From the NCBI GenBank assembly GCA_030737835.1, contig JAUJYN010000030.1, forward strand, positions 806,001 through 870,000: 64,000 nt of DNA. Reading direction: 5' to 3'. Of this stretch, positions 1,448 through 59,716 are shown piece after piece (positions within the stretch are counted from its first letter, which is position 1; every line of letters begins with the position of its first letter). Source of the DNA: Acorus gramineus (Eukaryota > Streptophyta > Magnoliopsida > Acorales > Acoraceae). Below the pieces are notes generated by a model, which worked only from the letters and a program-made list of their open reading frames with translations, ran no database searches and was not told the origin of the DNA. Both the position numbers and the translations under genes were made by a program.

Positions 1448-1460
1448 TTGCTATCAGAGC
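1448..1460 (+). other. Primer binding site, initiator tRNA-Met type
   Basis: TTGCTATCAGAGC lies four bases after the LTR end. Bases 1449-1460 match the usual plant PBS TGGTATCAGAGC, complementary to the 3' end of initiator tRNA-Met, at 11 of 12 positions (one G to C change). Position and orientation fit a + strand retroelement. Confidence 0.8.
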
Positions 1461-2710
1461 CTGGTCCTGTTAGTGCCTAAGTCTAGTCGTATAGATGATG
1501 AGTCGTAGGATTGTCATCTGAGTACTCTTGTTTTAGAAGTTATCTTAGGTTGCTGACATGCCTCCTCGCATCCGTTGACGTGGACGTGACCCCCCTGGAC
1601 CCACCCTTAAGTTGTCGACTGGGTCGACTGAACAGGGTCAGTTGTTGGATCCCTTGTTGCGGGATTAAGGCTTGGGTAGGAGATTCCAGCCCAGTAGTCT
1701 GATAGTGATGAATTGATTGCAAATTTTATAGTATGGATTGCGTCTCGATAATGGAGCTTCTTTCCCGTGCATCGGTATTGCTGGTAACCATGGAGTTCGC
1801 GTGCAGCGCCAGTTTCAAGTTTTGAGGATGTGGCGTATTGCTCATTAAGGGGTGATGTCTTCTTCCAGCCTCTCTACTCAGGATTAAGGGGCCTTGCGGG
1901 GTCATCGTTGAGACCCGGGCTAGGGTACTCCGTGTTCCTTGTTTGGTTGTCGGGATATCCTATATCGGGACCTCATGGTGCCCTCCCAAGGTTCTTTTCC
2001 CAGTCAAGGAATACCTTTGAAGCATCTAATTGATGATTGATTTTTCCTCTCACTTGGAAGGTGCTGTAGCGAGTGGTGATGCGTACGATCGGGATTGGGT
2101 ACATCCTATTGCAGCTTGGTGGGCGATTGCTTGTGGACTGGGTTCCATAGTGGCATCTAGAGTCGCTTCGATATATCATTGTGCGTTGTAGCTGCCCGGT
2201 TGAGGCCAGAGCCTTGTGAGGTGCTCCCAGATACTATGCTTGTTGGTGCGCCCATATGGCAGAGATAGTGGGCTTGGGAGGCTACCGGGTAGAGGCCACA
2301 CCAGGAGAGTGCTACTGGATGATGTCGAGAGCGTGGACTCCCCGTGATGAATCTGCCCATTGAGTGCAGGATGCTGGAGTTCCAATGGTTATAGTTGAGC
2401 GACCTATCTCTGGCGGCATGTGAAGCACAGTTGTGGATACTGTCGCGTTTTGCCCCACATTGGTCGCAAATAAGGAGACGTGATGCTAACGTTCGTGATG
2501 GGACTCAACTGCCTTATCAGATAGATGACGTCGCATAGGCATTGTCGAGGTTCGACGACCCCCCCTTATTGCGTGTCTTGTGGATTAAGTGCGGTTGAGT
2601 GGCTTACCAAGCGTGTAAGTGTCATCATGAGCGCCAGCCATGCTTGAGGAGCAGAATCTGGACTTAATTGTTCGAGGGGTTGTTTTGATCTCCCCGTGGA
2701 GGTTGAAGAT

Positions 2711-4068: not shown

Positions 4069-7066
4069 TGTTATGCCTGTGTCATTTGGAACCATTTCGG
4101 TTAAGCCTTGGTCACATCTGGGTCATTCAGGGCCTTTTTCTTTTTCGATCGGAGTTGCTAAAATTTTGGCTTTTAGCCACCTGCAGGAGTTAGAGTACTC
4201 TGATTGAAAATCTAACTGCATATTATGGGTCCTGGTACCGTTTAGTACTACCCATAAAAATTTCATCGAATTCCGATAACGTTTTGAAAAATATGCAATT
4301 CCGAATCGCATTCAGGTTTGGCCGTTACTGGGTTTCGGTGGGTGAGATATTTTCGAGTGTGTGGTGCTTCTCCGCACGCTTCCCAATAAAGCAAAAATAA
4401 GTGGTTGAGTGAGGGTGAGCCTAACCCTAACCTCACCACCCCCTTATGGTCACCCCAAAACACTATTTGGGCATGGAAATGACCTTTTTGCCCTCTCTCT
4501 CTCTCCCCCTCTCTCCCAACTCGTGGATCTCTCTTTCTCTCCCTCTCTTGGTCTCTTTTTCCCCTCTTTGTGTGTGTGGAGAAGGAGAAGGAAGAAGCAA
4601 TGAAGGAGAAGGTGAAGAAGGAAGCACAAGAAGGTGTTTGTGCAAGTAGTTGTTGTTGTTGTTGATTCTCTTCTCTCAAGCTCCCTCTCATGCCTTCCCC
4701 CCCTGTTTTGCAGCCAAAGAAGGCTGAGGAGGGCTGTGGAGGTGGTGGTAGTGGTGGTGGTGGTTGAGGTGGTCGCGGGTGCATCGAGGGCCCCCGAATC
4801 TCCCCCTTTCATTCCCCCTCCCTAGGTGAGCTCATCCCCTTCTTTTCTTTGGTTTTTCATGGCTTAAGGGGTTGTTGGGAAGTCATGCATGCTAGGTAAT
4901 TGGTTTAGGGTGAGTGAGAAGTGTGGGGGAGGGGTTAAAGGGGTTAAAAGAGTGCTGGACGCGCGCGCGGGTCTTTCCGCGCGCGTGCGTGTGTAGGCGG
5001 GCGCGCGGGTGCTCGCGGAGCGGGTTCGCGCTGGCGCTGGCAGCGCACGCGGGTTGTGCGCGTGAGTGCGCGATGGGGCAGATTGTCTGGGCGGGTCTTG
5101 GCGCGCGGCTGGGTGCCAGTGCGCGCGCGTGCGTGCGTGTGCATGATGGGGCATGCGCGGGGTTGCCCAGGGTCTCGGGTAGGTGCTGGGGCACTTGGGC
5201 ATGCGTGCGTACGCGTGTGCTCACATGCGTGCGAGCTCGTATGCATGCATGTCTAAGTCTTAGGCATTTCTAATAATTTCTAAGTGTTATAATGTGTTGC
5301 GCGTGCAGGCACGCGCAGAGGGGTGCTGGCACGCTGGCGGGCGCAAGCGCGCGAGCGTACCCGTGCGTGCGGTAGAGCGTCTCGACGCGCGGTTGGGCGC
5401 GCGGCAGTGCGCCAGGGGGTGCGGGGGCGCGTGCGCGTGTGCTTATGCGTGCGTACGCGTGCGGGGGCCATGCGTGTGGCTGCCCGAGGGTTCGGATAGG
5501 TGTCGGGGCACTCGGACTTGCGTGCGTACATGCGTACTCGCATGCGTGCGAGCCCATATGCGTGCTTGTCCGAGTCTTTGGCATTTCTAGTAAATTCCAT
5601 GTATATTTATGTAGTTATACTCACCATATTGAATGCCCTTGTCTTGCAGATCTTGGCGAACGGTCACGCAACGACCCGGGTTGCGGTGAGTGGGTCGATC
5701 CAACCCAGTTGGGAGGCGTTCGATGCACGTAGACGTGCATTGCCCTCCCCTAGGGCATCATAACTGCATATTAACCATATTTGCATGTATATGTTATTAT
5801 TGGGCTTGCTAGGTTGCATCCATGTCATGTTAGACCTAACATGTTAGGGTTATACATCTTACTATCATGTGTAGGGACCAATGCTTGTTCATGCATCATG
5901 TCCCATGTTAGGATAACATTTGATTCCTACATGCACACCGACCTTGCCGAAGTATACCCTTAGCTATCTATGAAAAGCATAAGTGTAAGCATGCCTTAGA
6001 AAATATTATGACCTTGTTATTATATTATTTAAATGCTTCCATGATGAATTCCTTGTATATTAATTATCCATGTTATATGCTTAAGTTGAGCCTCAAATCT
6101 TGCCTAATGAGTTTAGGCAAGTGTATGACCACTTTTGGAGGTCATACTTGGCAATTGTCACTATGAATAATATGTTTTCCCCGCATCTGAATTATGCGCC
6201 CTGCAAGGAATTCTTGAGAATTCGTTACCGTATCGGTGTTTAGTAACCAGTGTCGACGGATCCAAGATGATCGTATCCGCAAGTGTAGATTGTTTTCTCC
6301 CCTTCATTGGATTCGATGTAGGAACTCCCTGGCATTGGAAAAGATGTCCTAACATCCATAGGTACTACCGATGCATTCGGGAACGTACTGGTCGTGGCAG
6401 TATACCAGGTAGAGGCTACCCGGGGAAAGGGCTACCGGTGGACCAATGGTGTAGAGCAGTCTAATCTCTCCCAAAAGTCCTATGTCACCTCTAAAGGGTG
6501 AGGGTGAGGGTGTGGTGGGTCGGCGTCGCTACGACCCACCAATTTGTGCAGTTACTCCCATCTTAGGGACTTTATTGATTTTTAAGGTTAATATGAGTTG
6601 TGTTGCATGGATTGTACCATTCACTGAGCGTGTGGCTCACCCCTCGCATACCTTTTTCCTCCAATTGTCGCTGAGTCAGATCTGAAGGAGGAGCTCCCCG
6701 AGGCATCGCACCAGTAGCGGAGCAGCGTTCGCATTTTGGGTCTTGCGAGTGAGAGGCCATCAGCATCCCCCTTTTTCCTTGTATGTATTGTTACTCGTGC
6801 TTGGGCACAGTACTTGTATGATGATATCTTGTTTTATATTGTCTCTCACAGGACAGTTGATTATGTATTCTGGTCTGTAATATGTTTTTGAATTACAGAC
6901 TTAGTAGTTTAAGCTTCCGCTATATGTATATATATTATGTCAGCTACCTTGTTAATTGCGCTATTACCTTCGATGTTGTGTAGAGTCTTTTATTGATCTC
7001 GTGTTTGAACTGCTGATATTATATATATTTGCCACGTATCAGGGACGGCCGCCCTGGGGCGTGACA
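4069..7066 (+). mobile_element. 3' LTR, class B (2998 bp)
   Basis: The LTR starts TGTTATGCC directly after the polypurine tract and ends GGGGCGTGACA. The 3' flank is TCTAC; the 5' duplicate would lie outside the window. Internal landmarks in order: CT/GA-rich leader (4490-4620), donor-like TAG|GTGAGC at 4825/4826, a GC-rich alternating CG/GTGC zone (4955-5560), the microexon at 5650-5685 bordered by TTGCAG and GTGAGT, a GGGTGA block (6496-6520), and the terminal palindrome. The exon 3 acceptor, AG elsewhere, has become AA here (CCAATTG near 6661-6667), so splicing of the last intron would fail in this copy. Confidence 0.88.
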
Positions 7067-8030: not shown

Positions 8031-8365
8031 ACCAATCTCTGAGAGCCACGTCGTCTGACAGTTCACGCTAGCGAGATCTATATCGAACACATGGCGACAT
8101 CTGTTATATATGTGTCACTTTTAGCCTGCTGGTAACCGTTGGAGCGTTCTGGCAGTTTTTCATTTTTTTTCGGTTTTCGATTGGAACCGCTAATTTTTGG
8201 ACTGTTAGCTATCGTCCTGAGTTAGAGGACTCCGATTGGAAATCTAACTGCATATTTGGTGTCCTGGTGCCATTTTAGGCCTCTCACGAAAATTTCATCG
8301 AATTCCGGTAACGTTTCTGAAATTTCACAGTTTCGGGGCGTATCCGGGTATTTTAAGTGACTCGC

Positions 8366-8374
8366 TATATAAAT
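8366..8374 (+). promoter_or_regulatory. LTR TATA box
   Basis: TATATAAAT sits about 265 bp inside the class A LTR, upstream of a CT-rich leader. Equivalent TATA sequences occur in other class A copies at about 27779-27786 (+), 31401-31407 (-), 36084-36090 (-) and 62731-62737 (-). This would start the element transcript near 8395-8405. Confidence 0.65.
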
Positions 8375-8501
8375 GAAATCTAAAATCTTGTTGGCACTAT
8401 TCATCATCTTCCTCCTTGAGCTCTCTCTCTCTCTCCTTCTCCATTTTTCTTGATTTTGAGCCCCTTGGAGGGCTTGAAACTAAAAACCTAAAGCATAGGA
8501 A

Positions 8502-8526
8502 GTGTAGATCGGGTCCCGATCTACAC
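8502..8526. other. Conserved leader dyad (12-bp arms)
   Basis: GTGTAGATCGGG is followed after one base by its exact inverted complement. The same dyad is found in every class A copy: 27914-27938, 51601-51625, 47788-47812 and 62582-62606 in full, and shortened at 31255-31275 and 35938-35958. It lies in the predicted transcribed leader, where it would fold into a tight hairpin. Confidence 0.85.
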
Positions 8527-9603
8527 CCCGGTGCTTTCAAATTCGAATTCCGGTGAGTTTTAACCCTCCATCCGCCCTCTCTTCTTCCCTGATTTGGACC
8601 ATTTCGGAGGTGGGAGTAGATCCGGGCGTTGGAAGCCCTTTGGGAGAGGTTTCGGTGCGCGGAGAGCAACCGGATTTCCCTTCTTCCCCTCGGTAAGCCC
8701 TCTTTCTTCTCCTTTATGCTTAGATGTATGTTAGGAGGGTGGAAATGAGGTAGGGAGGCGGTCGGCGGCGGTGGGTGGCCGTTGGAGGGCTGTGGGGTGG
8801 CGGTCGGAGGCCATTGGTGGCCGGAGGAGTGGTGGTGGAGGTGCTCGGGCTTGGGGGTGTTGTCTCGGGCAGGGCAGCAGCACAGGCAGCACAGGCGCAG
8901 CAGCTGGCAGGGGCGCACGCGCGTGCGCGCTAGAGTGCGCGCGGGCGTGCGCGTGGGTGGAGCTGGGCGCGGGCGCTGGGCGCGGTGCTGGGCGCTGGGC
9001 GCTGGCGAGCGCAGTCGGGCGCGCAGTCGCGCGCGGGTGTGTGCGCGCGGGTGCGCGCGGAGTGGTCGCGCGGGTGCGCGCGGGTGCTGGCGCGAGCGGG
9101 GGTGTACGCGGGACTGCGCGCGAGCGTGCACGCGGTCGGGCAGGGAGCCTGGGCACTGTGCCTGGGTGCTGGGCAGAGCGCCTGGGCATGCGCCTGGGCG
9201 CGGTGCTGGGGACCAGTGCGCGCGGTGTTGGGGACCAGTGCGTGCGCGTGCTGGGGCGTGCGTGCAGTGCGCGCGGGGCGCGCTGGGCTGGACACGCGGT
9301 GCGCGCGGGTGCGAGCGTGCGGCAGTGCGTCGGGGCGCGCGGACAGGCGCGCGGCAGTGCGCCGGTGGTGTCCGGGTGTGCGGGCTGGGCTCGGCAGTGC
9401 GCCTTGGCGCGCGGGCCGGGACTCGGCTGTGCGCCCGAGGCGGGTGGCCGTGCGTGCGGCTGCCCGGTGGGTTCGGGAATGAGTCGGGATGCTCGGATAC
9501 GCGTGCGTACGGGTCGTATGTACGTTTGTCCGAGTGTTGAGTATTTTAGAATATTTTGATGTATTTATGTAGTTTACTCACCGTATAAATGCCTGTCTTG
9601 CAG

Positions 9604-9639
9604 ATCTTGACGGACGGTCGCGCGATGACCCGGATTTCG
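9604..9639 (+). other. Predicted 36-nt microexon inside the LTR
   Basis: This 36-nt segment lies between TTGCAG and GTGAGT, with a branch-like TACTCAC upstream of the acceptor. Equivalent segments with intact acceptor and donor occur at 5650-5685 (+), 29259-29294 (+), 52793-52828 (+), 26420-26455 (-), 34682-34717 (-), 40125-40160 (-), 46466-46501 (-) and 61263-61298 (-). Two class B copies have 37 nt: 36692-36728 (+) and 14697-14733 (-). In the 36-nt copies the second frame encodes a variable x-DGRSxxDP-like peptide that stays open into exon 3. Splicing is predicted from sequence only. Confidence 0.6.
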
Positions 9640-11299
9640 GTGAGTGGGACAATCCAACCCAGTAGAGAGGCGTTATACGCGTTTGGGCGTATACCGACCT
9701 CTCCTGGGGCTCCATGGATTGATATTAACCTATTGTAATGTATATTTCATGCGAGCATGATTTAAATGTAGAATGCATGTTACCCTAGACTTTGCATGTT
9801 AGGGACTTGCACCCTTAGGATATGTGTATGAGCCATGCACCATGTCCCCTGTTCTCATGCTAGGAAGCCTTGGCCTATGCATGTGTCCTACTAGTTTATT
9901 TATTAAATTAAATGCTAGTAAATGTTTAATTGCATGCCTTAGATAATATTATAGGGAGGGGCCTTGCGAGGTCAACATTGAGACCTGGGTTAGGGTACTC
10001 CGTGTTCCTTGTTTGGTTGTCGGGATGTCCTGTATCGGGACCTCATGCTGCCCTCCCAAGGTTCTCGTCCCAATAATATTACATCTCTAGTTGATAATTA
10101 AGGATTTACCCATGGTATGATTATTAGCGTATTAGTGAATATTATAGGGGAGGGGCCTTGCGAGGACAGCGGTGAGACCCGGGTTAGGGTACTCCGTGTT
10201 CCTTGTTTGGTTGTCGGGGTGTCCTATATCGGGAACTCACGCTGCCCTCCTGAATTTCTTTCCCCAATGATATTCCACCCTTGCTAATTATTGTACATGT
10301 TTCCCCGCATCGTGGTTATGCGCCCTGGAGGAATTCTGAGGAATTCATGACATTAGAATTGTAGAGATGTGTAGTCGGCGGATCCGAGTGGATCATATGC
10401 GTATGGATAGGCTGTTCTGTTTCCCTTCGTTGGATCCGATAGAGACTGCCCCAGCGTTAGAAAGGCCGTCCCTTCCAAGGGTTCCCATCAGTAGGCACCT
10501 CCTGATTTGGTTTCGGACTGGGCTGAAGTTGTGGGTGAAAGCCAAGCGCCTACGGAGTAGAGGAGAGACTATCGGTGGACCAAGGGTGACCAACAGCCTA
10601 GTCAGTCCTAAAATCCTATGTCACCCGTGGTAGGGTGAGGGTGAGGGTGTAGTGGGTTGGCGATGAGCGACCCACTGGATTGTGGTTGGATGATTATCAG
10701 TCCCAATAGCCTATGTCACCCATTGATGGGTGAGGGTGAGGGTGTGGTGGTTCGGCGATGTACGAACCACTGGATTATGTTGTTATGCCACTTAGAGGTT
10801 GGATAAATAATTGCATTGTGGTCAATATTGTCTGTGATGCATGGGTTGTGCTGTTCACTGAGCGTGTGGCTCACCCTCGCATATGTTTCCCCTAGTTGCC
10901 ACTGAGCCTGAGCTGGAGCCGGAGCAGCAGTTGGAGCTTTCCGAGGGATTCCTTCAGTAGCGGAGCAGCGCCACGTTCCGCGAGTGCCAGAGACTATCAG
11001 CATCCCTTCTTGACCATATGTATTGTATTACCGTGCTTGGCACGCATTTGTATGTATTTAGTTGTATTGGTGTATATTGGCTCTCACAGGACAGATGATT
11101 GAGTATCGAGTCTGTAGTATGATTATTTACAGATTCAGTCTTTTGCTTCCGCATTTGGTGTATATATCATGTCAGCCTCTTTGTTGTCTGAGTGTCATTC
11201 TGGTTGTTTGTGTATGATATATTATTGACCTCCTGTGTAGATTATGATATTATATATATACTTGCCGCGTCCCGGGGACGGCCGCCCTGGGGCGTGACA

Positions 11300-11997
11300 A
11301 CATCACCCTTGCGGCCTGAGCTAGGGGGCAACATCTTACCCTGTAGGAAAGGCCACCTTAAGGTTCATACCTTAAAGACAACATGTCACTCAGGGATACG
11401 CGACTCACTATTGACCGTATTCCATGAACCTAACCCATAGGGTGATGTCGAACAGTCAATTCAAGCCAGGAATGATTCAAAACTAGTCCTTAAGGGTAAC
11501 ATCGCACGGATGGTTCAAACCAATGAGACACACCCTGAACACCACATGACCACACCGTTTTGGCGGTTCAAGTCAGGGGAAAATATCAACCTCCACAAGG
11601 TGACTTCGTCTTTACAATTCAAGCCCGGGGCCAATGCGTCATCCGGTCATACAATGGTTAAAGCCAAAACAATGACGCGTCATCTAAGGATACGCCGCCC
11701 GCAACCAACCCATATCCCCACAATTAACCAGGCTACGTCTCACAAACAACTCAAGTCTGCCGTAAAACATACCTCTACGGGTTAATGACATCCTAATGAC
11801 TAAAACCCATGTCCAAACAATGCCAAGGAGACGTCTCGTCACATGGAAAATGCCAAATTTCCACCAACAGCCAAAGTTTCATTTACGGTGCGCAAGGAAC
11901 GACAATCAATCATGACAGGGCTTGCACCATCTGGCACATGTCACCACAAATATGTTTTTCCCACCCAACAAGAGGATCTCTGATCCCAGTCGGATGG
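11300..11997 (+). mobile_element. 3' internal remnant of a Tat/Ogre-like retrotransposon
   Basis: No reading frame of note is present. The sequence is compositionally like the array at 7728-8030, with recurring AAGGTGACTTCG and GGTTCAAGYC phrases. It leads directly into a polypurine tract and the start of a different LTR at 12013. It is interpreted as the non-coding 3' interior of the element that hosts the 8102-11299 solo LTR. The family name is inferred from layout, not from protein domains. Confidence 0.55.
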
Positions 11998-12244: not shown

Positions 12245-15200
12245 TGTCACGCCCCAGGGCGGCCGTCCCCGAGACGTGGCAATAACGAAATATCAGCTAT
12301 CAATACCTGAGGTCAATAGAGACTCCAACAACAACACACAAGGTGGCAAAGCAAGGATAATGATAACCGAGTGAAAAGTGAAAGCATAATATATAAACAA
12401 TGTCTGTAAATCAAAAACATTATTACAGACTCGAATACACAATCAATGTCCTGTGAGAGCCAAGTCTAGACCAAATAAAATACAACCTGTGCCACATGCA
12501 CGATTTACAATACATAAAATAACTCTAGGACTGCTGACAGCCTCGCACTCGCCACCCACCGGAAGAACGCTCCACGCCCATAAGACCACGCCATAGGGAA
12601 GCTCCAACTCCACGCCCAACACTGCCCCTGAAAAGAAACAGTATGCGAGGGGTGAGCTACAAGCTCAGTGAGTGGCTAGAAACCAATCACCATACAACAG
12701 TTCAATACTCAAACAATTTCCTCTCAAGGAAAACATGGGTAGAAACCCAATGGATAATAAGGCCACGCGACGGCGCGACCAACCTCACCCTCACCCTCAC
12801 TCCCGGAGGAAGACTCTTGGGACTTTTGGGGAGAGACCATACCGTTGGTCGAAGAGACGCGGAATTACTGGTCCACACAACACTACTGAATCACCAACCT
12901 CACCCTCACCCTCACTCCCGGAGGGAGACTCTTGGGACTCTTGGGGAGAGACCATACCGTTGGTCGAGGAGACCCGGAATTACTGGTCTACACAACACTA
13001 CTGGATCATCTACATCGAGATAACTGCCCAACGATGTCTTTGAGCATCGATACGCAACCGGACCCAACAACTATGGGAACGGACGAACCACGAATGGGTC
13101 ATGCGGCGACGTGTCTTCACCTCATCCTCACCCTCACCCTTTACAGGTGACATAGGAATTTTGGAGAGATTAGATTCCTCTACACCCTCGGTCCACCGGT
13201 AGCCCTTTTTCCGGGTAGTCACTACCTGGTATACTCCCACGATCAGTACGCTTCCGAACGCCTCGGTGGTACCTACGGATGGGAGCCCTCTGTCAGGACA
13301 GCTTTTCCAACACCGGGAAGTTCCTACATCGGATCCAACGAAGGGGAGAACGATTCCACGCTCGCAATATCATTCGTTAGCCCTCTCCCGGGTAGCCTCT
13401 ACCTGGTATACCCCCACGATCAGTACATCTTGCCACATGCATCGATAGTACCTACAGGTGGGGGCCCTCTGTCAGGACAGCTACAACCTGGGCTGCTTCA
13501 ACACGGACGACATTGGGAGGAAACACTCCATGTTCGCAAAGCGAACCCAATGGAAAAACAACTACTCTCGATAATCACATATCGATGATAGCGAACACTA
13601 TTGTACTCCCACACGGTTGCGTCGCTCGGACACAAGGGGGGTTGCCTCTGCTCTCACGCAGAAATAATCCCAAGGCACATAACCCAACAGGCGGTTCATA
13701 TACACGCCTAGCACGGGTAGGCCTAGCTTAATGCCCCAACTACCGGCTTAACAAAACCGATAAGATAATGAATTCTCCTGAATTCCAAACGAGTGCATCG
13801 CTCGGATGCACGGGGCGATTACATCGCTAGCGCTCTAACTAATAAGGTACAACCCGACAACGGGTCATACCCACGCCTATTCCAGATAGGCCTAATCAGT
13901 TTTAACATGCGCATAATTATTACAGGAGAATTCTATCACTGAAGGAACTTGATCCACATGCACAATAACCTATGCTTAACTATAGGGGTTCTCCCTAACA
14001 TGAGTATATGGCATAAACAACACATCATGCAACATACATACAAGGCAAGGCCTAACTACACATACATATGAGGGCACTAATCGTATAAACATACAAAATA
14101 TACTCTAACATGCGTTGGATATCACCAACTTAAAAGAAAGGGTCAAGCGCGATCTCGCGCACTAACAGGTGCATGCCAATATTCCAAACGAACCTGAGTC
14201 GAGTAGGAAATCGCATCTACTTACTCAGTTCGTTCAGAGGGAGAGGGCGAGAGAGATCATCATCTCATGAAGCTGGTCATAGCTTTGCCCCATTAGCATG
14301 GGCGCAACAACTACACAATGCCCTTGAGTCTTATTGCAAGGGAATATTAGGCAGGTGCCCGTTATTAACCCAGACTTAATCATACTGGATATTCCAATTA
14401 ATATGGTGGGAGTAGTATTACAGTACTACCTAAGGCAGGCCATATTCTATACATCCATACACATTACAAAAATACATGCCCATACTAGAGGGGCGCATGC
14501 AACACAATCATTCATACATGGATACAATACATGTATATAAGCCTAGCATGCAAGATATCTAACATATTATAGTTTAAGCATGGCCATACTACTTATCTAC
14601 ACAAGTAGTATAGCTATGGGGCCCCATCGATGCGCGACGCGCGACTACGCGCGTCGAGCGCATCCCGAGGGGGGGGGATTGGATCAAACCACTCACCGCA
14701 ACCCGGGACCTCGCGCATCCCTTTCGACGAGATCTGCATGGTAAGGGCATCAAATTTGGTGAGTAACATCATAATATAACGCTTAGAAATTACTAGAAAT
14801 ACCAAAGACTTAGACATTCACGCATACGGGCTCGCACGCATGCGAGCACGCGCGTACGCACGCATGCCCAAGTGCCCCAGCACCTACCCGAGCCCCTGGG
14901 CAGCCCCACGCATGCCCCAGCACGCGCACGCACGCGCACGCACGCGCGCGCGCGCACTGGCACCCAGCCGCGCGCCCAGACACACGCCCAGGCGCACTGC
15001 CCCGCGCGCACACGCATGCGCCCGCCTGCGCCTGCCAGCGCCCCTCTGCGTGCGCCTGCGCGCGCCCAGCCATTCTTAACCCCTTTTTAACCACTTATAA
15101 CCCCTTCCCCTCACTTCTCACTCACCCTAAACCAACTACCTAGCATGCATGACTCCCCAACAACCCCTAAGCCATGAAAAAACCAAAGAAAAGAAGGGGA

Positions 15201-16000
15201 AGAGCTCACCTAGGGAGGGGGAATGAAAGGGGGAGATTCGGGGGCCCTCGATGCACCCGCGACCACCTCAACCACCACCACCACTACCACCACCTCCACA
15301 GCCCTCCTCAGCCTCCTTTGGCTGCAAAACAGAGGGGAAGGATATGAAAAGAGAGCTGGAGAGAGGAGGATCAACAACAACAACAATTACACAAATCTCA
15401 CCTTCATGCACTTGCACCTCCTCTTCTTGCTCCATCTTCTTCTCCTTGGCATCAAATCAAACACTTGGGGAGTGTTTGAAAGAGAGAGAAAGCTTAAAGA
15501 GAGGGAGGGAAAGTGTTCCACGAGTTGGGAGAGAGGGGGAGAGAGAGAGAGGGAAAAAAGATCTTTTTCATGCCCAAATAGTGTTTTGGGGTGACCTTAA
15601 GGGGGGGGGTGAGGTTAGGGTTAGGCTCACCCACACACAAACCAAATAACCAATGGTTTCTTCCTCCCCAAGCAAGGTGGGGGTAAGGTTACCAAGGGTC
15701 ACCACATCCCCAAAATATCTCACACTATTCGACCCACCAGGAACTCTCAAAACCCGGATGCGATTCGGAACTGCATATTTTTTAAAATGTTACCGAAATT
15801 CGATGAAATTTTTATAGGTAGTACTAAACGGTACCAGGACCCATAATATGCAGTTAGATTTCCAATCAGAGTGCTCTAACTCCCGTAGGTTGCTAAAAGC
15901 TAAAATTTTAGCGACTCCGATCGAAAAAAGAAAAGACCCTGAATGACCCAGATGTGACCAAGGATTAACCGAAATGGCTCCAAATGACACAGGCATAACA
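12245..16000 (-). mobile_element. Solo LTR, class B (3756 bp), TSD ATATA
   Basis: On the given strand it runs from TGTCACGCC to GGCATAACA, flanked by ATATA at 12240-12244 and 16001-16005. It is the longest intact LTR of the window. Landmarks on the - strand: leader with GA-rich tract (15476-15556), donor at 15209/15210 (CTAG|GTGAGC), a GC-rich zone (14820-15070), a 37-nt microexon at 14697-14733, exon 3 acceptor TTTTCAG at 12628-12634, two (TCACCC)n blocks near 12786-12802 and 12897-12914, and the terminal palindrome near 12255-12275. No internal region is present. Confidence 0.92.
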
Positions 16001-17282: not shown

Positions 17283-18160
17283 GATTGGGGCCGTTTATGA
17301 GATACCTCTTCTAATTGGGAAGATGCAAGCACATGATGCCCTTTTTTCTTTTCCTTTATTTTTATTTTTGCATTCTACTCTTTCTCTTTCAAAATGTGTA
17401 ATTTGAATTCAATAATGAAATCAAGTATACCTATCTTTTCTTTAAATAAAAAAAATGAATATGTTCTTGCCCTACCCTCACTCGAAATCGTAAAATCATA
17501 AAGGCCCAGTTTGGTATGGGGATAAGGGGTTGGGATAAAGAAAAAAATTAGGTTAAATTACTTATTATCCCATATGGCATTAAAAAAAATGGATAAAGTA
17601 TGGACAATTGTTCACATTTTGGAGATAAAAAATGAGAATAGTTTGTTTTAGGTAAAAAATGGAACAGACTTTATCCCAATTTTTTATCCCTATTTTGTAA
17701 AATTAGGATAGCATATTTATGAGTACCCTTTCCAACAAAAAAAAAAAATGTGTTCTACCAAACAATATTAATGCCCCATTAATAGTGTTTGATAGATCTG
17801 ATATTTTTAAAAAAAATTAAAGTTATCCCATATTTTATCAAAATACAAAATTAAGAATAAAAAAATAATAAAATGATAATAAAAAAACATTATCAAAACT
17901 AAATTTAAATAAAAATAGTAATTTTTTTATTTCTATAAATTAAACTATATTATTTTTAAAATTTATCACTTTATCGACCAAAAGAAAAGAAGTAAAAAGA
18001 GCCATGAACGAAACCCCAAAAAAACACACCTTCCATGAATTAATTGCTAAAAAGTCCTTGCCAGCTGCCAAGGCTGCCATCCATTAATCTCCCACCCTGC
18101 TCTCCCCACTCTTCTTCTTCCCAAACTCACCACCGAAACAACAGAGTTAAAAAAAATAAA
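17283..18160. other. AT-rich upstream region of the protease gene
   Basis: No gene is visible. A segment beginning GGCCCAGTTTGGTATGGGGA at 17503 with repeated GGATAA and TTATCCC phrases up to about 17700 looks like a small non-autonomous transposon, but I could not pair its ends. The last 150 bp become pyrimidine-rich (CTCCCCACTCTTCTTCTTCCC near 18101), as expected for a plant 5' untranslated region. Confidence 0.5.
17934..17940 (+). promoter_or_regulatory. Possible TATA box of the aspartic protease gene
   Basis: TATAAAT lies about 225 bp before the chosen start codon and upstream of the pyrimidine-rich leader. The surrounding sequence is so AT-rich that a chance match is likely. Confidence 0.3.
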
Positions 18161-19564
18161 ATGAGCATTCTCACCATCTTCATGTTCCTGCTCCCCATCC
18201 AAGTCGTCTTTTCAAAAACCACCCTCCAATACCAAACCCTTCAATTAACCCCCCTCCCATCCCCCACATCCCTCCAACTCCAAACCCACTCCCGCTCCTC
18301 TCTCCCCACCACCACCATCTCCTCCATCCACCTCCCCCTCCACCACCGCGACTCCCTCCCCACCACCCTCTCCCCCTCCCAACTCCTCCACCTCCGCCTC
18401 TCCCGCGACGCCTCCCGCGTCGAAACCCTAATCTCCCGCCACAAAAATCCCCCAAACAACTTCACAGGCTCCGTAATCTCCGGCCTCTCTCAGGGAAGCG
18501 GCGAGTACTTCACCCGCATCGGCGTCGGCACTCCCTCGATCCAGTCCTTCTTCGTCCTCGACACCGGCAGCGACCTCATCTGGCTCCAGTGCTCCCCCTG
18601 CAAGAAATGTTATTTCCAGACCGACCCCATCTTCAACCCTTCCCACTCCCGCTCTTTTTCCCACCTTCCCTGCTCTTCCCCTCTCTGCCGCCGCCTCGAC
18701 TCCCCCGGCTGCTCCACCGCCTCCGACTCCTGTCTCTACCAGGTCAGCTACGGCGACGGCTCCGTCACCGTCGGGGACTTCTCCACCGAAACCCTCACCT
18801 TCGACAACGCCTCCCGCCTCGGCCGCATCGCCCTCGGCTGCGGCCACTCCAACCAGGGCCTCTTCGTCGCCGCCGCGGGTCTCCTCGGCCTCGGCCGGGG
18901 CCGTCTCTCTTTCCCCTCCCAGACCACCCGCCACCTGCGCCGCCGCTTCTCCTACTGCCTCGTCGACCGCCTCTCCTCCCGCCGGCGCTCCTCCCCGCCC
19001 TCCTCGTCCATCGTGTTCGGCGACGCGGCCGTCCCGGCGACCGGGGATTTCACTCCGATGTTGGCGAACCCGAAGGCGGAGACGTTCTACTACGTGGAGA
19101 TGACGGGGATCAGCGTCGGCGGGTCGGCGGTGGAGGGGGTGAGGGGGTCTGATCTGAGGCTGGATCCGGCGACGGGGGAGGGAGGGGTCATCGTCGACTC
19201 GGGGACGTCGGTGACGCGACTGCCGGAGACGACGTACGCCGCGGTTAGGGACGCGTTCAGGTCTGGCGCGGGTGGGCTGAGGCTGGCGCGCGAGGGGTAC
19301 TCGCTGTTCGACACGTGTTACGACTTGGCGGGGAAGAGGGAGGTGAAGGTGCCGACGGTGGTGTTGCATTTTAAGGGAGGCGCGAATGTGTCGCTCCCCG
19401 CGGAGAATTATTTGATACCCGTCGCGTCGGATGGGCTGTTCTGCTTTGCTTTCGCGGCGACGAACGGGGGATTGTCGATTATCGGAAACATACAGCAGCA
19501 GGGGTTCCGGGTTGTGTTTGATGGTGCAGAGTCCAGGGTCGGGTTTGTCCCAAACGGGTGTTAG
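18161..19564 (+). CDS. Nepenthesin-like aspartic protease (family A1B), secreted
   Basis: Intact single-exon gene of 467 residues. Pepsin-like aspartic proteases cleave proteins with two Asp residues; this plant branch is normally secreted or apoplastic. The start at 18161 is chosen because MSILTIFMFLLPIQVVFS is a clear signal peptide; the in-frame ATG at 18044 would add 39 residues of non-signal sequence. Visible features: conserved GLSQGSGEYF entry to the mature enzyme (about residue 108), first catalytic motif DTGS (Asp134), Cys-rich nepenthesin insert after it, flap YGDGS (Tyr197), second motif DSGTS (Asp346), and C-terminal SIIGNIQQQGFRV (about 440). The body resembles Arabidopsis At1g01300/At3g61820, which are also intronless. 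Codons are very GC-rich in the first two thirds. It is the only fully intact host gene here and sits in an LTR-free island. Confidence 0.95.
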   Translation: MSILTIFMFLLPIQVVFSKTTLQYQTLQLTPLPSPTSLQLQTHSRSSLPTTTISSIHLPLHHRDSLPTTLSPSQLLHLRLSRDASRVETLISRHKNPPNNFTGSVISGLSQGSGEYFTRIGVGTPSIQSFFVLDTGSDLIWLQCSPCKKCYFQTDPIFNPSHSRSFSHLPCSSPLCRRLDSPGCSTASDSCLYQVSYGDGSVTVGDFSTETLTFDNASRLGRIALGCGHSNQGLFVAAAGLLGLGRGRLSFPSQTTRHLRRRFSYCLVDRLSSRRRSSPPSSSIVFGDAAVPATGDFTPMLANPKAETFYYVEMTGISVGGSAVEGVRGSDLRLDPATGEGGVIVDSGTSVTRLPETTYAAVRDAFRSGAGGLRLAREGYSLFDTCYDLAGKREVKVPTVVLHFKGGANVSLPAENYLIPVASDGLFCFAFAATNGGLSIIGNIQQQGFRVVFDGAESRVGFVPNGC

Positions 19565-27515: not shown

Positions 27516-30500
27516 TGTTATATATGTGTCACTTTTAACCTGCTGGTAACCGTTGGAGCGTTCTGGCAGTTTTTCAATTTTTTTCGGTTTTCGATCGGAA
27601 CCGCTAAATTTTGGACTGTTAGCTATCATCCTGAGTTAGAGGAGTCCGATTGGAAATCTAACTGCATATTTGGTGTCCTGGTGCCATTTTAAGCCACTCA
27701 TGAAAATTTCATCGAATTCCGGCAACGTTTCTGAAATTTCACAGTTCCGGGGCGTATCTGGGTTTTTAAGTCGCACACTATATAAGGGTGGGATCTAATT
27801 TTCGAAATCACTATTCATCATCCCTACCAACCCTTCCCCTCTCTCCTCTTCTCCATTTTTCTTCCATTTGAGGCCCTTAGACCCCTCAAAACCAAAAACC
27901 TAAAACCTAGGAAGTGTAGATCGGGTCCCGATCTACACCCCGGTGGTTTCAAATCTCGATTCCGACGAGTTTTACCCCTCCGTCCGCCCTCTCTTCTCCT
28001 CTGTTTTGGCCCATTTCGGAGGTGGGAGTAGATCCGGGCGTTGGAAGCCCTTTGGGAAAGGTTTCGGTGCGCGGAGAGCAACCGGACTTCCCTTCTTCCC
28101 CTCGGTAAGCCTCTTTTCCCTCTTTTCATGCTTAGATGTATGTTAGGAGGGTAGATTTGAGGTTGGGAGGCGGTCGGCGGCGGTGGGTGGCCGTCGGAGG
28201 GCTGTGGTGGTGGTCGGAGGCCGTGGGGTGGTCGGAGGTGGGTGGGTGAGGAGCTCGGGCTGGCAGGCTGCTATCTCGGGCAGGGCAGCAGCGCAGGGCA
28301 GCAGGCGCAGCGGCTGGCGCGGGCGCGCGCGCGCGTGCGCGCGGGCATGCGCTCGGGTGGCGCTGGGGGCCAGCAGGGCTGGGCAAGCTGGGTAGGACTA
28401 GCCGGGTAGGCTAGGAGCAGGCGCACCAGTTTGCCGGGCGCGCGAGCGCGTGCGCGGGCGTGCGCTCGGGGGGTGCAGGGGGGAGGCATGCGGGTAGGCA
28501 GGCTGCGGGCTGTGCGAGCAGGCAGGCCAGCTGGGCAGGCCATGCTCGGGCAGCTGGCAGGGGGTGCTCGGGCATTAGGCGGGCAGTGGCTGGGCGTGCA
28601 AGGCGAACGGTGCTCGGGCCACTCGGCGACGCGCGCAGGCAAGCAGCGCGGGCAGCAGCGCGGGCATGCTGGCAGGCACGTTGGGCGCGTGCTGCCAGGC
28701 GCGCTGGGCGCGTGTTGCGCGTGCGTGCGCGTGGGCGCTGGGTGAGGGTCCCGGGTGCTGGGCGCTGAGCGTCGGGTGCTGGGCCGCGGATACCGGGCGC
28801 TGGGCTGCGGCGCGGGTGGTGCGCGCGGTGCAGTGGGTGCGAGCAGGTGGTGCGCGCGGGTAGGGGCTGGTAGTTGCGCGCGGAGTGCGCGCGGATAGGG
28901 GGCTGGAGGTGCGCGCGGGTGCGTGCGGGGCGAGGCGCTGCGCGCGGGGCGTGCGGGGTGCTCGCGGGCCAGCGCGAGGCGTGCGGGGTGTGCACGGGCG
29001 GCTGCGCTGGGGCGCAGGGGGCGCGCGGTGCACCCGGGAGGTTCGGCGGTGCGCGGGGTGCGTTGGCTGAGGCGCGGCGGTGCACCCGGGCGGTCGGGCG
29101 GCCGTGCGGGTGGTTGCCGAGGTGCTCGGGCTAGTGTGCGTGCGGGTCGTATGCACGTTTGCCCGAGTGTTGGATGTTTGTTTGTGGGTTTTGTGAATTT
29201 TGATGTCTTTGGTAGTAGTTGTGGATTTTAACTCACCATATAAATGTCTGTCTTGCAGATCCTGACGGGCGGTCGCGCGACGACCCGAACTTCGGTGAGT
29301 GGGACAATCCAATCCAGTAGAGAGGGGTCATACGCATTTGAGCGTATACCGACCTCTCCTGGGGCACCATGGATGAATATTAACCATAGTAATATGTAAT
29401 CCATGCTTGCATGATTTAAATGTAGAATGCATGCTACCCTAGTCTTTGTATGTTAGGGACTTGCACCCATAGGATAGGTGTAAGAGCCATGCACCATGCC
29501 CCTGTTTTCATGCTAGGAAACCTCGGCCTATGCATGCGTCCTACTAGTTTATTTATTAAATTAAATGCTAGTGTATGTTAAATCGCATGCCTTAGATAAT
29601 ATTATAGGGAGGAGCCTTGCGAGGTCAACATTGAGACCCGTGTTAGGGTACTCCGTGTTCCTTCTTTGGTTGTCGGGATGTCCTGTATCGGGACCTCATG
29701 CTGCCCTCCCAAGGTTTCTAGTCCCAGTAATATTATAAGTAATGTTATATAACTGGTATGATTATTAGCAATTCTAGTGAATATTATAGGGGAGGGGCCT
29801 TGCGAGGACAGCGGTGAGACCCGGGTTAGGGTACTCCGTGTTCCTTGTTTGGTTGTCGGGGTATCCTATATCGGGAACTCACGCCGCCCTCCCGAGTTCT
29901 TTCCCCCAATGATATTACAACCTTGCTTTTATTGTACATTTCCCCGCATCTCGGTTATGCGCCCTGGAGGAACTCTGAAGAGTTCATGACATTAGAGTTG
30001 TAGAGATGTGTTATCGGCGGATCCGAGTGGATCATATGCGTATGGATAGGCTGTTCTGCTTCCCTTCGTTGGATCCGTGTAGAGACTGCCCTAGCGTGAT
30101 AAGGTCGTCTCTTCCGAGGGCTCCCATCAGTAGGCGCCTCCCGATATTTGTGACGGACTGCGCTGAAGTTATGGGTGAAGGCCAGCGGCCTACGGAGTGG
30201 AGGAGAGACTATCGGTGGACCAAGGGTGACCAACAGCCTAGTCAGTCCCAAAATCCTATGTCACCCATGGTAGGGTGAGGGTGAGGGTGTAGTGGGTTGG
30301 CGATGAGCGACCTACTGGATTTGTGGTTGGATGATTATCAGTCCCAATAGCCTATGTCACCCATTGATGGGTGAGGGTGAGGGTGAGGTGGTTCGGCGAG
30401 GTACGAACCACTGGATTATGTTGTTATGTCACTTAGATGCTGGATAAATAATGGAATTGTGGTAAATATTGTTCGTGATGCATGGGTTGTGCTGTTCACT

Positions 30501-30942
30501 GAGCGTGTGGCTCACCCCTCGCATATGTTTTTCCCCAGTGGTCACTGAGCTGGAGCCGGAGCCGGAGCAGCAGTTGGAGCTTTCCGAGGGATTCCTTCAG
30601 TAGCGGAGCAGCGCTACGTTCCGCGAGTGCCAGAGGTTATCAGCATCCCTTCTTGACTGTATGTATTTGATTTCCGTGCTTGGCACGTGTTTGTATATGT
30701 TCAGTTGTATTTGTGTATATTGGCTCTCACAGGACAGATGATTGAGTATCGAGTCTGTAGAATGTTTATTTACAGATTCAGTCTTTTGCTTCCGCATTTG
30801 GTGTATATATCATGTCAGCCCTTTTGTTGCATGCGTGTCATTCTAGTTGTTTGTGTATGATATATTATTGACCTCCTGTGTAGATTCTGATATTATATAT
30901 ACACTTGCCGCGTCCCGGGGACGGCCGCCCTGGGGCGTGACA
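27516..30942 (+). mobile_element. Nested solo LTR, class A (3427 bp), TSD ACCAC
   Basis: It is flanked by ACCAC at 27511-27515 and 30943-30947, and sits in opposite orientation within the GC-rich intron zone of the LTR 24705-31666. It has a TATA (27779-27786), leader dyad (27914-27938), donor CTCG|GTAAGC (exon end 28104), microexon 29259-29294, acceptor TTTTTCCCCAG ending at 30538, and TGACA end. All predicted splice sites are intact. Because the duplicated relative at 32960-36545 lacks this insertion, it inserted after the tandem duplication. Confidence 0.93.
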
Positions 30943-31666
30943 ACCACCAACCACCGGCCACCCCAAGGCCTCTGACCACCACCCACAGCCCTCCGACGGC
31001 CACCCACCGCCGCCGACCACCACCCAACCTCAAATCCACCCTCCTAACATACATCTAAGCCAAAAAGAAGAGGAAAAAGAACTTACCAAGGGGAGGAAGA
31101 GATGTTCGGTTGCTCTCTGCGCACCGAAACCTTTCCCCAAAGGCCTCCAACGCCGGGATCTTCCTTGGCCCTCGAATTGGCCCAAATCAGAGGAGAAAAG
31201 AGGGGGGATGGAGGGGCCAATCTTCTCGGAATTCGAATCCGAGAACACCGGGGCGTAGATCGGGACCCGATCTACTCTTTCTATGTTATGGGTTTTGAGT
31301 TTCAAGCCCTCCAAGGGGCTTAAAAGCAAGAAAAATGGAGAAGGAGAGAGAGAGAGCTCAAGGAGGAAGATGATGAATAGTGCATGACTTTTCTCACCCC
31401 TCTTATATAAAGTCAACTCACTTAAAAACCCGGATACGCCCCGGAACTGTGAAATTCTGGAAACGTTACCGGAATTCGATGAAATTTTTGTGAGAGGCCT
31501 AAAATGGCACCAGGACACCAAATATGCAGTTAGATTTCCAATCAGAGTCCTCTAACTCAGGACGATAGCTAACAGTCCAAAAATTAGCGGTTCCGATCGA
31601 AAAACCAAAAAACTGCCAGAACGCTCCAACGGTTACCAGCAGGTTAAAAGTGACACATATATAACA
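30943..31666 (-). mobile_element. Class A LTR, 5' portion (right piece of split LTR)
   Basis: It completes the LTR begun at 24705: donor CTTG|GTAAGT at 31086/31087, shortened dyad (31255-31275), TATA on the - strand (31401-31407) and the TGTTATATATG start at 31666. Retroelement internal sequence with a polypurine tract adjoins at 31667, so this is the 3' LTR of a - strand element. Confidence 0.88.
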
Positions 31667-44795: not shown

Positions 44796-47700
44796 TGTCA
44801 CGCCCCAGGGCGGCCGTCCCCGGGACGCGGCAAGTGTATATATAATATCAGAATCTACACAGGAGGTCAATAATATATCATACACAAACAACCAGAATGA
44901 CACACATGCAACAAAGGGGCTGACATGATATATACACCAAATGCGGAAGCAAAAGACTGAATCTGTAAATAAACATACTACAGACTCGATACTCAATCAT
45001 CTGTCCTGTGAGAGCCAATATATACAAATACAACTGAATATATACAGACACGTGCCAAGCACGGAAATAAAATACATACAGCCAAGAAAAGGGATGCTGA
45101 TAGCCTCTGGCACTCGCGGACGTAGCGCTGCTCCGCTACTGAAGGAATCCCTCGGAAAGCTCCAACTGCTGCTCCGGCTCCAGCTCAGGCTCAGTGGCAA
45201 CTGGGGAAAACATATGCGAGGGGTGAGCCACACGCTCAGTGAACGGCACAACCCATGCATCACAGACAATATTGACCACAACATAATAATCCAGCTATTC
45301 GTCTCGCCTCCACGGGGCAGGAACAACATAAACATTTGTCCATCTTAAACCACAATTTCCATAACCCAGATCATACCCTCACCTTTACCCCTCAACAGGG
45401 GACTCAGGATGTTGGGACTAACAATCAACCATAAACAAAACCAGCGGGTCGCTCATCGCCAACCCACTACACCCTCACCCTCACCTTTCCAAAGGTGACA
45501 TAGGATTTTGGGACTGACTAGGCTGTTGGTCACCCTTAGTCCACCGATAGTCTCTCCTCCACTCTGTAGGCCGCTTGGTCTCCACCCACAACTTCAGCAC
45601 AGTCCGAAACCAAATCAGGAGGTGCCTACTGATGTGGGTCCTCCGAAGGACGGCCTTTCTAACGCTGGGGGTAGCCTCTACCGGATCCAACGCAGGGAAC
45701 AGAACAGCCTATCCATACGCATATGATCCACTCGGATCCGCCGACAACACATCTCTACCACTCAAATGTCATGAACTCTTCAGAGTTCCTCCAGGGCGCA
45801 TATCCAAGATGCGGGGAATAAGTACAATCAAAAGCAATGTTGGAATATCATTGGGGGAAAGAAACTCGGGAGGGCGGCGTGAGTTCCCGATACAGGATAC
45901 CCCGACAACCAAACAAGGAACACGGAGTACCCTAACACGGGTCTCACCGCTGTCCTCGCAAGGCCCCTCCCCTATAATATTCACTAATCATGCTAATAAT
46001 CATACCAATCATACAACATTACTTATAATATTATTGGGACTAGAAACCTTGGGAGGGCAGCGTGAGTTCCCGATACAGGACACCCCGACAACCAATCAAG
46101 GAACACGGAGTACCCTAACACGGGTCTCAATGTTGACCTCGCAAGGCTCCTCCCGATAATATTACCTAAGGCATGCGATTTAACATACACTAGCATTTAA
46201 TTTAATAAATAAACTAGTAGGACGCATACATAGGCCGAGGTTTCCTAACATGAAACAGGGGACATGGTGCATGGCTCATACACATATCCTAAGGGTGCAA
46301 GTCCCTAACATACAAGTCTAGGGTAGCATGCATTCTACATTTAAATCATGCAAGCATGGATTACATATTACTACTGGTTAATATAATCCATGACGCCCCA
46401 GGAGAGGTCGGTATACGCCCAAGTGCGTATAACGCCTTTCTACTGGGTTGGATTGTCCCACTCACCAGTATCTGGGTCTTCGCGCGACCGTCCGTCTAGA
46501 TCTGCAAGACAGACATTCAATATGGTGAGAACAATACATAAATACTCTAAAAATACCCAAACATACAAAACCCACAACTAAACACCTAACACTCGGGCAA
46601 ACGTGCATACGACCCGCACGCACGCTAGCCCGAGCACCCCCGGCAACCACCCGCACGGCCGGCAACCACCCGCACGGCCACCCGACCGCCCGGGCGCACC
46701 GCCGCGCACCGCCGGACCTCCCGGGTGCACCGCGCGCCTTCTGCGCCCCAGCGCAGCCGCCCGCGCACACCCCGCACGCCTCGCGCTGGCCCGCGAGCAC
46801 CCCGCACGCCCCGCGCGTAGCTCCTCGCCCCCGCGCGCACCCCGAGCACACCACCCCGCTCCGCGCACACCCCGCGCGCACCACCTGCCTCTACCCGCAC
46901 GCACCACCCGCGCCTCAGCCCAGCGCCCGGTATCCGCGGCCCAGCACCCGACGCTCAGCGCCCAGCACCCGGGACCCTCACCCAGCGCCCACGCGCACGC
47001 ACGCGCAGCACGCGCCCAGCGCGCCTGCCAGCATGCCCACGCTGTTGCCCGCGTTGCCTGCCTGCACGCGTCGCCGAGTGGCCCGAGCACCGTTCGCCTG
47101 CACGCCCGGCACTGTTCGCCTGATGCCCGAGCACCTCCTGCCCTGCTCGCCTGCACGCCCAGCCTGCCAGCCCGGCCTGCCCGCGCGCACAGCCCACAGC
47201 CTGCCTACCCACATGCCTCCCCCTGCACCCCCCGAGCGTACGCCCGCGTGCGCACCCGCGCGCACGCGCTCGCGCGCCCAGCAAGCTGGTGCACCCGCTC
47301 CCAGCCTACCCGGCCAGCTCCTCCCGGGTGCACCCGCGCACAGCACGCCCAGCGCCCGCACGCCCAGCACCCGCACACCCAGCACGCGCCCAGCCTGCTG
47401 CGCTGCTGTGCTGCTGCCGGCGCTGCCTGCGCCCGAGACCAAACCCTCTGCTGCCCGAGACCACCCCCCCACCATTCCCGAGCACCCAAAGCACCACCCA
47501 CCGACCTCCGACCACCTCCACAGCCCTCCGACGGCCACCCACGGCCGCCGACCTCCACCCAACCCCAAAACCCCCTCCTAGCATACATCTACACAAGAAA
47601 AGAGAGGCAAAAGAGGCTTACCAAGGGGAGGAAGGGAAGTCCGGTTGCCCTCCGTGCACCGAAACCTCTCCCAAAGGGCTTCCAACGCCTGGATCTACTC

Positions 47701-48210
47701 CCACCTCCGAAATGAGCCAAAACAGAGGAGAAGAGAGGGCGGACGGAGGGGCAAAACTCGCCGGAATTCGGATTTGAAAGCACCGGAGTGTAGATCGGGA
47801 CCCGATCTACACTTCCTATGCTTTAGGTTTTAAGCTTTGAGGGCTCTAGGGGGCTCAAAAGTGAGAAAAGGAGAGAGGGGAGAGAGAAAATGAAATTGGT
47901 AGGGATGATGAATAGTGACATAAGATATTTCTCACCCACTATTTATATCAAGTGACTTAAAAACCCGGATACGCCCCGGAACTGTGAAATTTCGGAAACG
48001 TTACCGGAATTCGATGAAATTTTCGTGAGAGGCCTAAAATGGCACCAGGACACCAAATATGCAGTTAGATTTCCAATCGGAGTCCTCTAGCTCAGGACGA
48101 TAGCTAACAGTCCAAAAATTAGCGGTTCCGATCGAAAACCGGTAAAAACCAAAAAACTGCCAGAATGCTCCAACGGTTACCAGCAGGCTAAAAGTGACAC
48201 ATATATAACA
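44796..48210 (-). mobile_element. Solo LTR, class A (3415 bp), TSD ATATT
   Basis: It is flanked by ATATT at 44791-44795 and 48211-48215. On the - strand: TATA-like start, full dyad 47788-47812, donor CTTG|GTAAGC at 47621/47622, GC-rich zone 46610-47420, microexon 46466-46501 and exon 3 reading EPELEPEQQ. It inserted into a resistance-gene flank fragment: the host sequence on both sides continues the same ATATTATAAATTCAT phrase seen uninterrupted at 44108-44120. Confidence 0.93.
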
Positions 48211-59500: not shown

Positions 59501-59615
59501 TTTTGCTCCAGCCTTTTGAGTTCTTTGTTGATGCCGCGTACCATCGTCACCTCATCTTTTGCCATATTGATGACAATATCGATGATTCGAGACATGAGAG
59601 GGTCCAAAATCATCA

Positions 59616-59619
<4 letters not shown>
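56524..59619 (-). pseudogene. CC-NB-LRR resistance gene (RGA-like), two frameshifts
   Basis: This encodes an intracellular immune receptor of about 1,030 codons, if read through. The start is the ATG at 59619, just inside a (TC)n leader repeat. Visible in order: Rx-type coiled coil with YDADDIIDECE (residues 73-83), P-loop GMGGIGKTTL (205-214), kinase-2 LVLDDVW (281-287, the final Trp marks the CC class), then after a shift GSRILITTRNE, GLPIAIK, MHD motif in CTMHDLVREMA, and leucine-rich repeats to the end. Frameshift 1 lies at 58716-58720, where one A is missing from an A-run on the coding strand. Frameshift 2 lies at 57635-57638, where there is one extra T. Both are in homopolymers, so sequencing error is as likely as real decay. 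No other stop breaks the frame, which argues for a recently active gene. Confidence 0.9.

Positions 59620-59646
<27 letters not shown>
59619..59646. repeat. (TC)14 microsatellite in the CNL leader
   Basis: An uninterrupted TC run, followed by (AC)5 to 59656, directly upstream of the start codon on the - strand. Length changes here would alter the 5' leader but not the protein. Confidence 0.9.
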
Positions 59647-59656
<10 letters not shown>

Positions 59657-59710
59657 TTATTAGAAAGGGTTGAGAAATGCATTGTGGTTTGGAGCTCCTC
59701 CATTCTATGC

Positions 59711-59716
59711 TTTATA
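59711..59716 (-). promoter_or_regulatory. Probable TATA box of the CNL gene
   Basis: On the - strand CTCTTTATAAAGC lies about 95 bp before the start codon, leaving room for a short leader that includes the (GA)n repeat. It is a good match in a good position. Confidence 0.5.

Follow-up and report, generated by a model that had tools for sequence, protein, structure and literature searches.

Can a long terminal repeat (LTR) carry introns of its own, and how would they survive reverse transcription? The question is raised by a solo LTR at positions 8102..11299 of a 64-kb stretch of Acorus gramineus DNA (contig JAUJYN010000030.1, positions 806,001 to 870,000; the whole stretch is termed the window), which belongs to an abundant Ty3-type retrotransposon. 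The original prediction was that transcripts of the element are spliced within the LTR, where three exons would be separated by two introns. It did not raise the question of how such introns outlast reverse transcription. As retrotransposon RNA is rewritten into DNA, LTR introns that are spliced may leave LTRs without them, and we searched the genome (399 Mb, 137 contigs) for such copies, here termed processed LTRs. The LTR in question, of family A, has the following layout, with transcription probably starting near 8396, judged by the LTR TATA box:

8102..11299, plus strand: solo LTR of family A, 3198 bp, which starts with TG, ends with CA and is flanked by the duplication ACATC
8097..8101, plus strand: left target-site duplication ACATC
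11300..11304, plus strand: right target-site duplication ACATC
8366..8373, plus strand: TATA-like sequence TATATAAA
8396..8692, plus strand: exon 1, 5' leader, joined to exon 2 in processed copies
8693..9603, plus strand: intron 1, GT..AG, 911 nucleotides (nt), GC-rich, exactly missing in processed copies elsewhere in the genome
9604..9639, plus strand: exon 2, 36 nt
9640..10895, plus strand: putative intron 2, with conserved sites (donor GTGAGT at 9640, acceptor CCCTAG ending at 10895) and putative removal
10896..10979, plus strand: putative exon 3, ATG-free until a GCGAGT in copy 8102..11299
10980..10985, plus strand: GCGAGT, a possible GC-type third donor; G[CT][GA]AGT is found in 46 of 50 copies

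We conclude that intron 1 is very likely spliced within the LTR, in a sister family (B) together with a small intron 0, and that the spliced RNA is then reverse transcribed into new insertions.

Intron 1 is missing from processed LTRs of family A

With at most three mismatches allowed, the exact exon 1/exon 2 junction turned up 21 times in forward and 17 times in reverse orientation in the genome, 38 places in all, against three forward places and no reverse place for a reversed-pattern control. We fetched 26 of the 38 places, and 25 of these were LTRs with exon 1 joined exactly to exon 2 and with intron 2 beginning directly after it; L043 was rejected as a chance match. Two of the processed LTRs (L031 and L054) have a mutated exon-2 donor. 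As read from these processed DNA copies, intron 1 has the GT..AG ends and the exact removal that mark a spliceosomal intron. Its exact absence from processed LTRs of two families (see below) shows splicing inside the LTR followed by reverse transcription.

Compared over exon 1 and from exon 2 onwards, the closest intron-bearing relatives showed 80-98% similarity. A tree of 27 intron-bearing and 25 processed LTRs, the latter from several subfamilies, required 16 changes, and well-supported branches force at least 10 of these. Shuffling of the labels gave 17.5 changes on average, and the processed LTRs were no more clustered than shuffled ones.

Two elements, both read at their edges and junctions only, have a primer binding site (PBS) and a polypurine tract and lack intron 1 in both LTRs: C78:712807-720062 (LTRs of 2162 and 2168 bp, TTATG flanks) and C2:7692637-7700072 (LTRs of 2312 and 2298 bp, ACCAT flanks). 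The LTR lengths are close to 3198 - 911 = 2287 bp, as expected if intron 1 alone was lost. The repeat and unique 5' regions (R-U5) of a new copy are taken from the 5' end of the template RNA, so that a spliced template leaves both LTRs of the copy without the intron. As both LTRs are intronless between target-site duplications, the two insertions came from spliced RNA. Our own prediction that intronless LTRs would not be found was wrong for intron 1, where the junction copies were found, and is uncontradicted for intron 2.

Long open frames on both strands of the GC-rich intron 1 (8731-9564) are probably due to chance and likely to mislead gene prediction.

A second processed intron in sister family B

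Where blocks of them can be aligned, families A and B are 61-76% alike. A family B copy in the window shows an additional intron upstream of intron 1:

12245..16000, minus strand: LTR of sister family B, 3756 bp, duplication TATAT
15322..15401, minus strand: intron 0 of family B, 80 nt, GTGAGA..TTTTGCAG; a like stretch is missing in 10 of 14 processed copies
14734..15209, minus strand: intron 1 of family B, 476 nt, missing in all 14 picked copies
14697..14733, minus strand: exon 2 of family B, 37 nt

The junction pattern used for family B was too loose and gave 3265 matches, many of them ordinary intron-bearing exon-2 sites; 14 candidates were chosen by eye among 100 matches listed. In all 14 the end of exon 1 was joined exactly to exon 2 with intron 1 gone, and ten of them also lacked the upstream intron 0 of about 80 nt. 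Family B copies without intron 0 include L066, L069, L073, L074, and L076. For three of these the joint was aligned with unspliced window copies (L073 and L076 with the copy having its donor at 4826, L074 with that at 15209), while L064 and L067, also among the ten, seem to use a different donor. Intron 0 is retained in L070 and L077; L072 is cut short and L075 is ambiguous. In an intermediate subfamily, intron 0 was found exactly missing from L041 compared to the unspliced L011 and L025, retained in L033, and deleted in its interior in L042, where both splice sites are still there. Neither splice site of intron 0 was seen in the family A copies read by eye. The three-exon layout of the original prediction is incomplete in that it lacks this small upstream intron.

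Conservation of the splice sites

Other LTR copies in the window are the following:

4135..7066, plus strand: old copy of the LTR, with its donor at 4826 and loss of the exon-3 acceptor (AA)
27516..30942, plus strand: solo LTR, duplication ACCAC, donor at 28105
44796..48210, minus strand: solo LTR, duplication AATAT, donor at 47621

All 11 exon-2 modules in the window consist of a CAG, a segment of 36 nt (nine copies) or 37 nt (two copies) and GTGAGT, as had been claimed. The ten copies cited with the original prediction do have an intact exon-1 donor; an eleventh, near 42 kb on the minus strand, has lost it. The two reported losses of the exon-3 acceptor, AA near 6664 and TG near 41570, were both seen. 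Intron 1 indeed diverges: in a comparison of 20 copies with the window copy, 74% of its positions were identical, with gaps (13%) scored as differences, versus 94% for exon 2.

Counts covering the window and 20 fetched loci showed the exon-2 acceptor to be present in 46 of 47 copies and GTGAG in 45 of 47 (45 rows parsed, two others read directly). GTRAG at the exon-1 donor was intact in 40 of 43 and the exon-3 acceptor in 47 of 50, with one more place, matched twice, left unanchored and uncounted. Ranked by a site score based on the plant consensus, the two donors came 3rd and 7th among 256 and the two acceptors 8th and 37th among 175.

The claim that the sites are kept better than neighbouring positions was assessed by a circular-shift test on alignments of seven diverged clusters. 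It holds for the exon-2 site pair, the conservation of which was reached at 5 of 179 positions, and for the exon-1 donor, where 3 of 238 did so; both counts include the true position. A more telling pattern is the degenerate conservation of the exon-1 donor and the exon-3 acceptor. The former occurs as GTAAGC, GTAAGT, GTAAGG, GTGAGC, and GTGAGT with differing exon ends; the latter mostly retains a pyrimidine tract and YAG while the letters vary.

Upstream of the exon-3 acceptor, at 10841-10885 and in the copies, TTCACTGAGCGTGTGGCTCACCCC shows stronger conservation than the acceptor; an inverted repeat, TGAGC/GCTCA, is present there. Putative intron 2 holds two pairs of direct repeats, 9939-10083/10132-10277 (86% alike) and 10602-10684/10697-10779 (83% alike).

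A possible partner of the exon-2 donor

Of the two introns originally predicted, intron 1 is borne out by exactly processed copies in two families, a stronger proof than the conservation of its sites, while no processed copy was found for the intron between exon 2 and exon 3. The exon 2/exon 3 junction of the young family A form gave two weak matches (three mismatches) versus three in the control, and that of family B gave none; older forms were not searched. Sequence directly following exon 2 is retained in 39 of 39 processed LTRs from the two families, although the donor is mutated in some of them and, in L067, other sequence sets in after about 11 readable nt. If intron 2 were removed on templates spliced for intron 1, it should be missing in some copies. 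As it is missing in none, the RNAs from which these copies were made had no joint between the exon-2 donor and exon 3.

The exon-2 donor may be better paired with an acceptor that lies just before the gag ATG, as in this element:

1449..1460, plus strand: PBS-like sequence TGCTATCAGAGC, downstream of a family B LTR that ends near 1441
1541..1548, plus strand: acceptor-like sequence TATCTTAG, 9 nt upstream of a gag-like ATG at 1558

Among 11 PBS-like sites, two were away from this kind of LTR and one was followed by other sequence, leaving eight readable elements. All eight have TTAG|G downstream of the PBS and 9 nt before the gag ATG, with a branch-like CTGAT or CTAAT upstream in seven. In L020, read by eye, an ATG 44 nt before gag opens an out-of-frame overlapping frame, which a splice at TTAG|G would remove. 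We tentatively suggest that the exon-2 donor is used mainly with this acceptor, with removal of the PBS, although we put this at somewhat below an even chance.

The distribution of ATG triplets was counted in 21 copies. Exon 1 has 0.33 ATG per copy versus 2.04 expected and is ATG-free in 17 of the 21 copies; exon 2 has 0.05 per copy and the first ~62 nt of exon 3 none. The introns contain 11.2 (intron 1) and 35.3 (putative intron 2) ATGs per copy, and the remainder of the LTR contains 5.6.

Altogether, these data can be arranged in the following model. The LTRs carry 5'-leader introns, with RNA probably starting near the LTR TATA box. The PBS comes after the end of intron 1, as it does for intron 0 in family B, and RNA from which these introns have been spliced can still be reverse transcribed. 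Intron-bearing LTRs persist presumably because intron-retaining templates also transpose. Splicing from the exon-2 donor to the gag-side acceptor would remove the PBS together with upstream ATGs and give gag a short, nearly ATG-free leader. Such PBS-less mRNA could not be copied by the element's own route, which would explain the absence of LTRs without intron 2. Two RNA pools may result, a PBS-less spliced mRNA for translation and a PBS-bearing RNA, with intron 1 in or out, for replication. The last LTR intron would be kept across transposition by this built-in filter, and introns ahead of the PBS would be free to come and go.

Alternative explanations

In the strongest alternative, the three-exon reading, exon 2 is spliced to exon 3 within one LTR, with exon 3 either continuing across U5 and the PBS or terminating at a poly(A) site inside the LTR. 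The 47 of 50 exon-3 acceptors kept with a varying pyrimidine tract agree with this, as does the ATG-free start of exon 3. RNA of this kind would keep its PBS, however, and yet its junction is lacking from the young family A form and family B, the forms searched; the sequence after exon 2 is retained in every processed LTR, and the rest of the LTR contains ATGs. We consider this reading rather unlikely.

Still less probable, by analogy with retroviruses, is that the exon-2 donor serves as a site for the U1 small nuclear ribonucleoprotein (snRNP) which blocks early polyadenylation in the 5' LTR, with intron 2 staying in the RNA. Donors of human immunodeficiency virus type 1 (HIV-1) and foamy virus are described as acting in this way, and suppression by U1 at the major splice donor is treated in PMC12789967. 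Such a role would account for a conserved donor without processed copies, but leaves both the conserved exon-3 acceptor and the gag-side acceptor unexplained.

That the processed LTRs arose other than by splicing, with an ancestral intronless form or a deletion of intron 1 as DNA, is very improbable. Small intronless clades are present on the tree, and L042 proves that DNA deletion within intron 0 happens, though there both splice sites stay. Against this, intron 1 is at the same place in both families, every joint read falls at GT..AG, the losses are scattered over the tree rather than confined to one clade, and 10 of 14 family B copies have lost a second intron, with the joint at the GT..AG of that intron. 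Finally, protein-binding or coding motifs can practically be dismissed as the reason for the conserved stretches: indels in multiples of three, a GAG-rich exon 3 in family A that resembles codons ending in TAG, and conserved non-splice motifs near the sites speak for them, but a coding exon 3 was rejected given the near-absence of ATGs ahead of it, stops in exon 1 of most copies, an exon 2 of 36 or 37 nt and the lack of the TAG in family B, and for intron 1 the processed copies refute the idea.

Several points weigh against our own reading. The evidence for splicing consists of DNA copies rather than RNA reads, and the family B candidates were picked by eye. Some processed LTRs form small clades (L045/46/50/51 and L048/49/54), which suggests that intronless elements may transpose too; these clades, the paired LTRs of one element and recombination could all alter the number of losses, which is inexact. 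In the circular-shift test the exon-2 AG on its own was matched at 30 of 179 positions. The exon-3 AG does not exceed chance (91 of 174). Retention of the exon-3 acceptor in 47 of 50 copies suggests some use of exon 3. In young copies the four splice dinucleotides are kept at 90-100%, and about 40% of all GT and AG in the LTR are kept at 95% or more. The sites do not stand out there, and a conservation test on young copies alone is uninformative. The ATG depletion is moderate, as the copies are related, and fewer ATGs than expected are also seen in U3 and at the end of the LTR. The PBS-removing splice is suggested by the arrangement of sites. The search of genome DNA for junctions that it would create gave no match for exon 3/gag and one unrelated match for exon 2/gag, which our model predicts, but which is predicted equally by no splicing and is no proof.

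Element class and other features of the window

Judged by its LTR ends, the 5-bp duplication, the PBS and polypurine tract and the Gag, protease and reverse transcriptase domains, the LTR belongs to an abundant Ty3-type retrotransposon. A perfect 5-bp repeat was found at 9 of the 17 LTRs with both ends readable, which are solo LTRs; some of the other eight adjoin a PBS or polypurine tract. The order in related elements is LTR, AAAGT, PBS TGGTATCAGAGC, about 100 nt and the gag ATG, and the polypurine tract before the 3' LTR is AGGGGGGAAGAA. We take the PBS to match initiator tRNA-Met, and the element may be a chromovirus of the Tekay clade, a guess from the LTR size and the start of gag. Retrotrans_gag, Ty3_capsid, RVP_2, and RVT_1 domains were found in open frames of L020, L011, and L018, L011 representing a form that has protease and reverse transcriptase. 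The internal regions of C78:714969-717894, C2:7694949-7697774, and L018:752-3546 are short (2.8-2.9 kb), and by their length these elements may be non-autonomous.

Elsewhere in the window, nested insertions at 24705-31666 comprise a minus-strand LTR split around the plus-strand solo LTR 27516-30942 (ACCAC). Judged from translations, an open frame at 18044-19564 (plus strand) resembles an aspartyl protease, and open frames at 56524-59901 (minus strand), in three frames, resemble a nucleotide-binding site leucine-rich repeat (NBS-LRR) resistance gene.

Relation to known systems and significance

Retroviruses such as human T-cell leukemia virus (HTLV), bovine leukemia virus (BLV), and foamy viruses have a splice donor in R and an acceptor downstream in the genome. 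Their donor thus lies inside the LTR as here, but no complete intron is known within their LTR. In plant genes with introns in the 5' untranslated region, a short exon is followed by a leader intron of about 1 kb, similar to that described here, where the intron instead sits in a repeat that must propagate through RNA.

A 2025 review describes plant LTR elements as generally intronless, with exceptions such as Ogre and EVADE (PMC12786077), and introns in the internal region have been described for Ogre, EVADE, and BARE1 (PMC12786077; PMC6317226; PMC3735527); Bagy2 and CRR are also named as spliced (PMC3735527). These systems likewise splice LTR-retrotransposon RNA, which is thought to balance proteins or RNA pools, but their introns are internal, whereas those shown here are part of the LTR and precede the PBS. 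From barley DNA, the authors report, no DNA copy of spliced BARE RNA could be amplified (PMC3735527), in contrast to the at least 39 such copies found here. BARE1 has one RNA pool that is translated but uncopyable and another for replication (PMC3735527); separate RNAs for translation and replication are also part of our model, but in BARE they are described as stemming from two TATA boxes and a lack of R, while we propose that the PBS is spliced out. Spliced isoforms of sunflower Tyran and Varan were seen by nanopore RNA sequencing, one with two introns removed (PMC7730604); in the text available they are described for gag-pol and the introns are not placed in the LTR. In HIV-1 and Rous sarcoma virus (RSV), spliced molecules may account for up to 10% of the packaged RNA (PMC5086612). 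The literature searched, which comprised open-licence papers, gave no account of introns located within an LTR; two papers with such wording mean something else by it.

For annotation, solo LTRs of this kind may be predicted as spliced non-coding genes, and the processed form may pass for a separate family. The processed LTRs are a natural record of the RNA molecules used as templates. An intron in R-U5 should vanish whenever spliced RNA is copied, and this family makes the paradox testable, since one genome holds intron-bearing and intronless forms together with at least 10 changes between them on the tree. The finding is relevant to the balance that plant retrotransposons strike between translation and replication: if the PBS-removing splice is true, the element would separate its RNA pools by splicing across the PBS.

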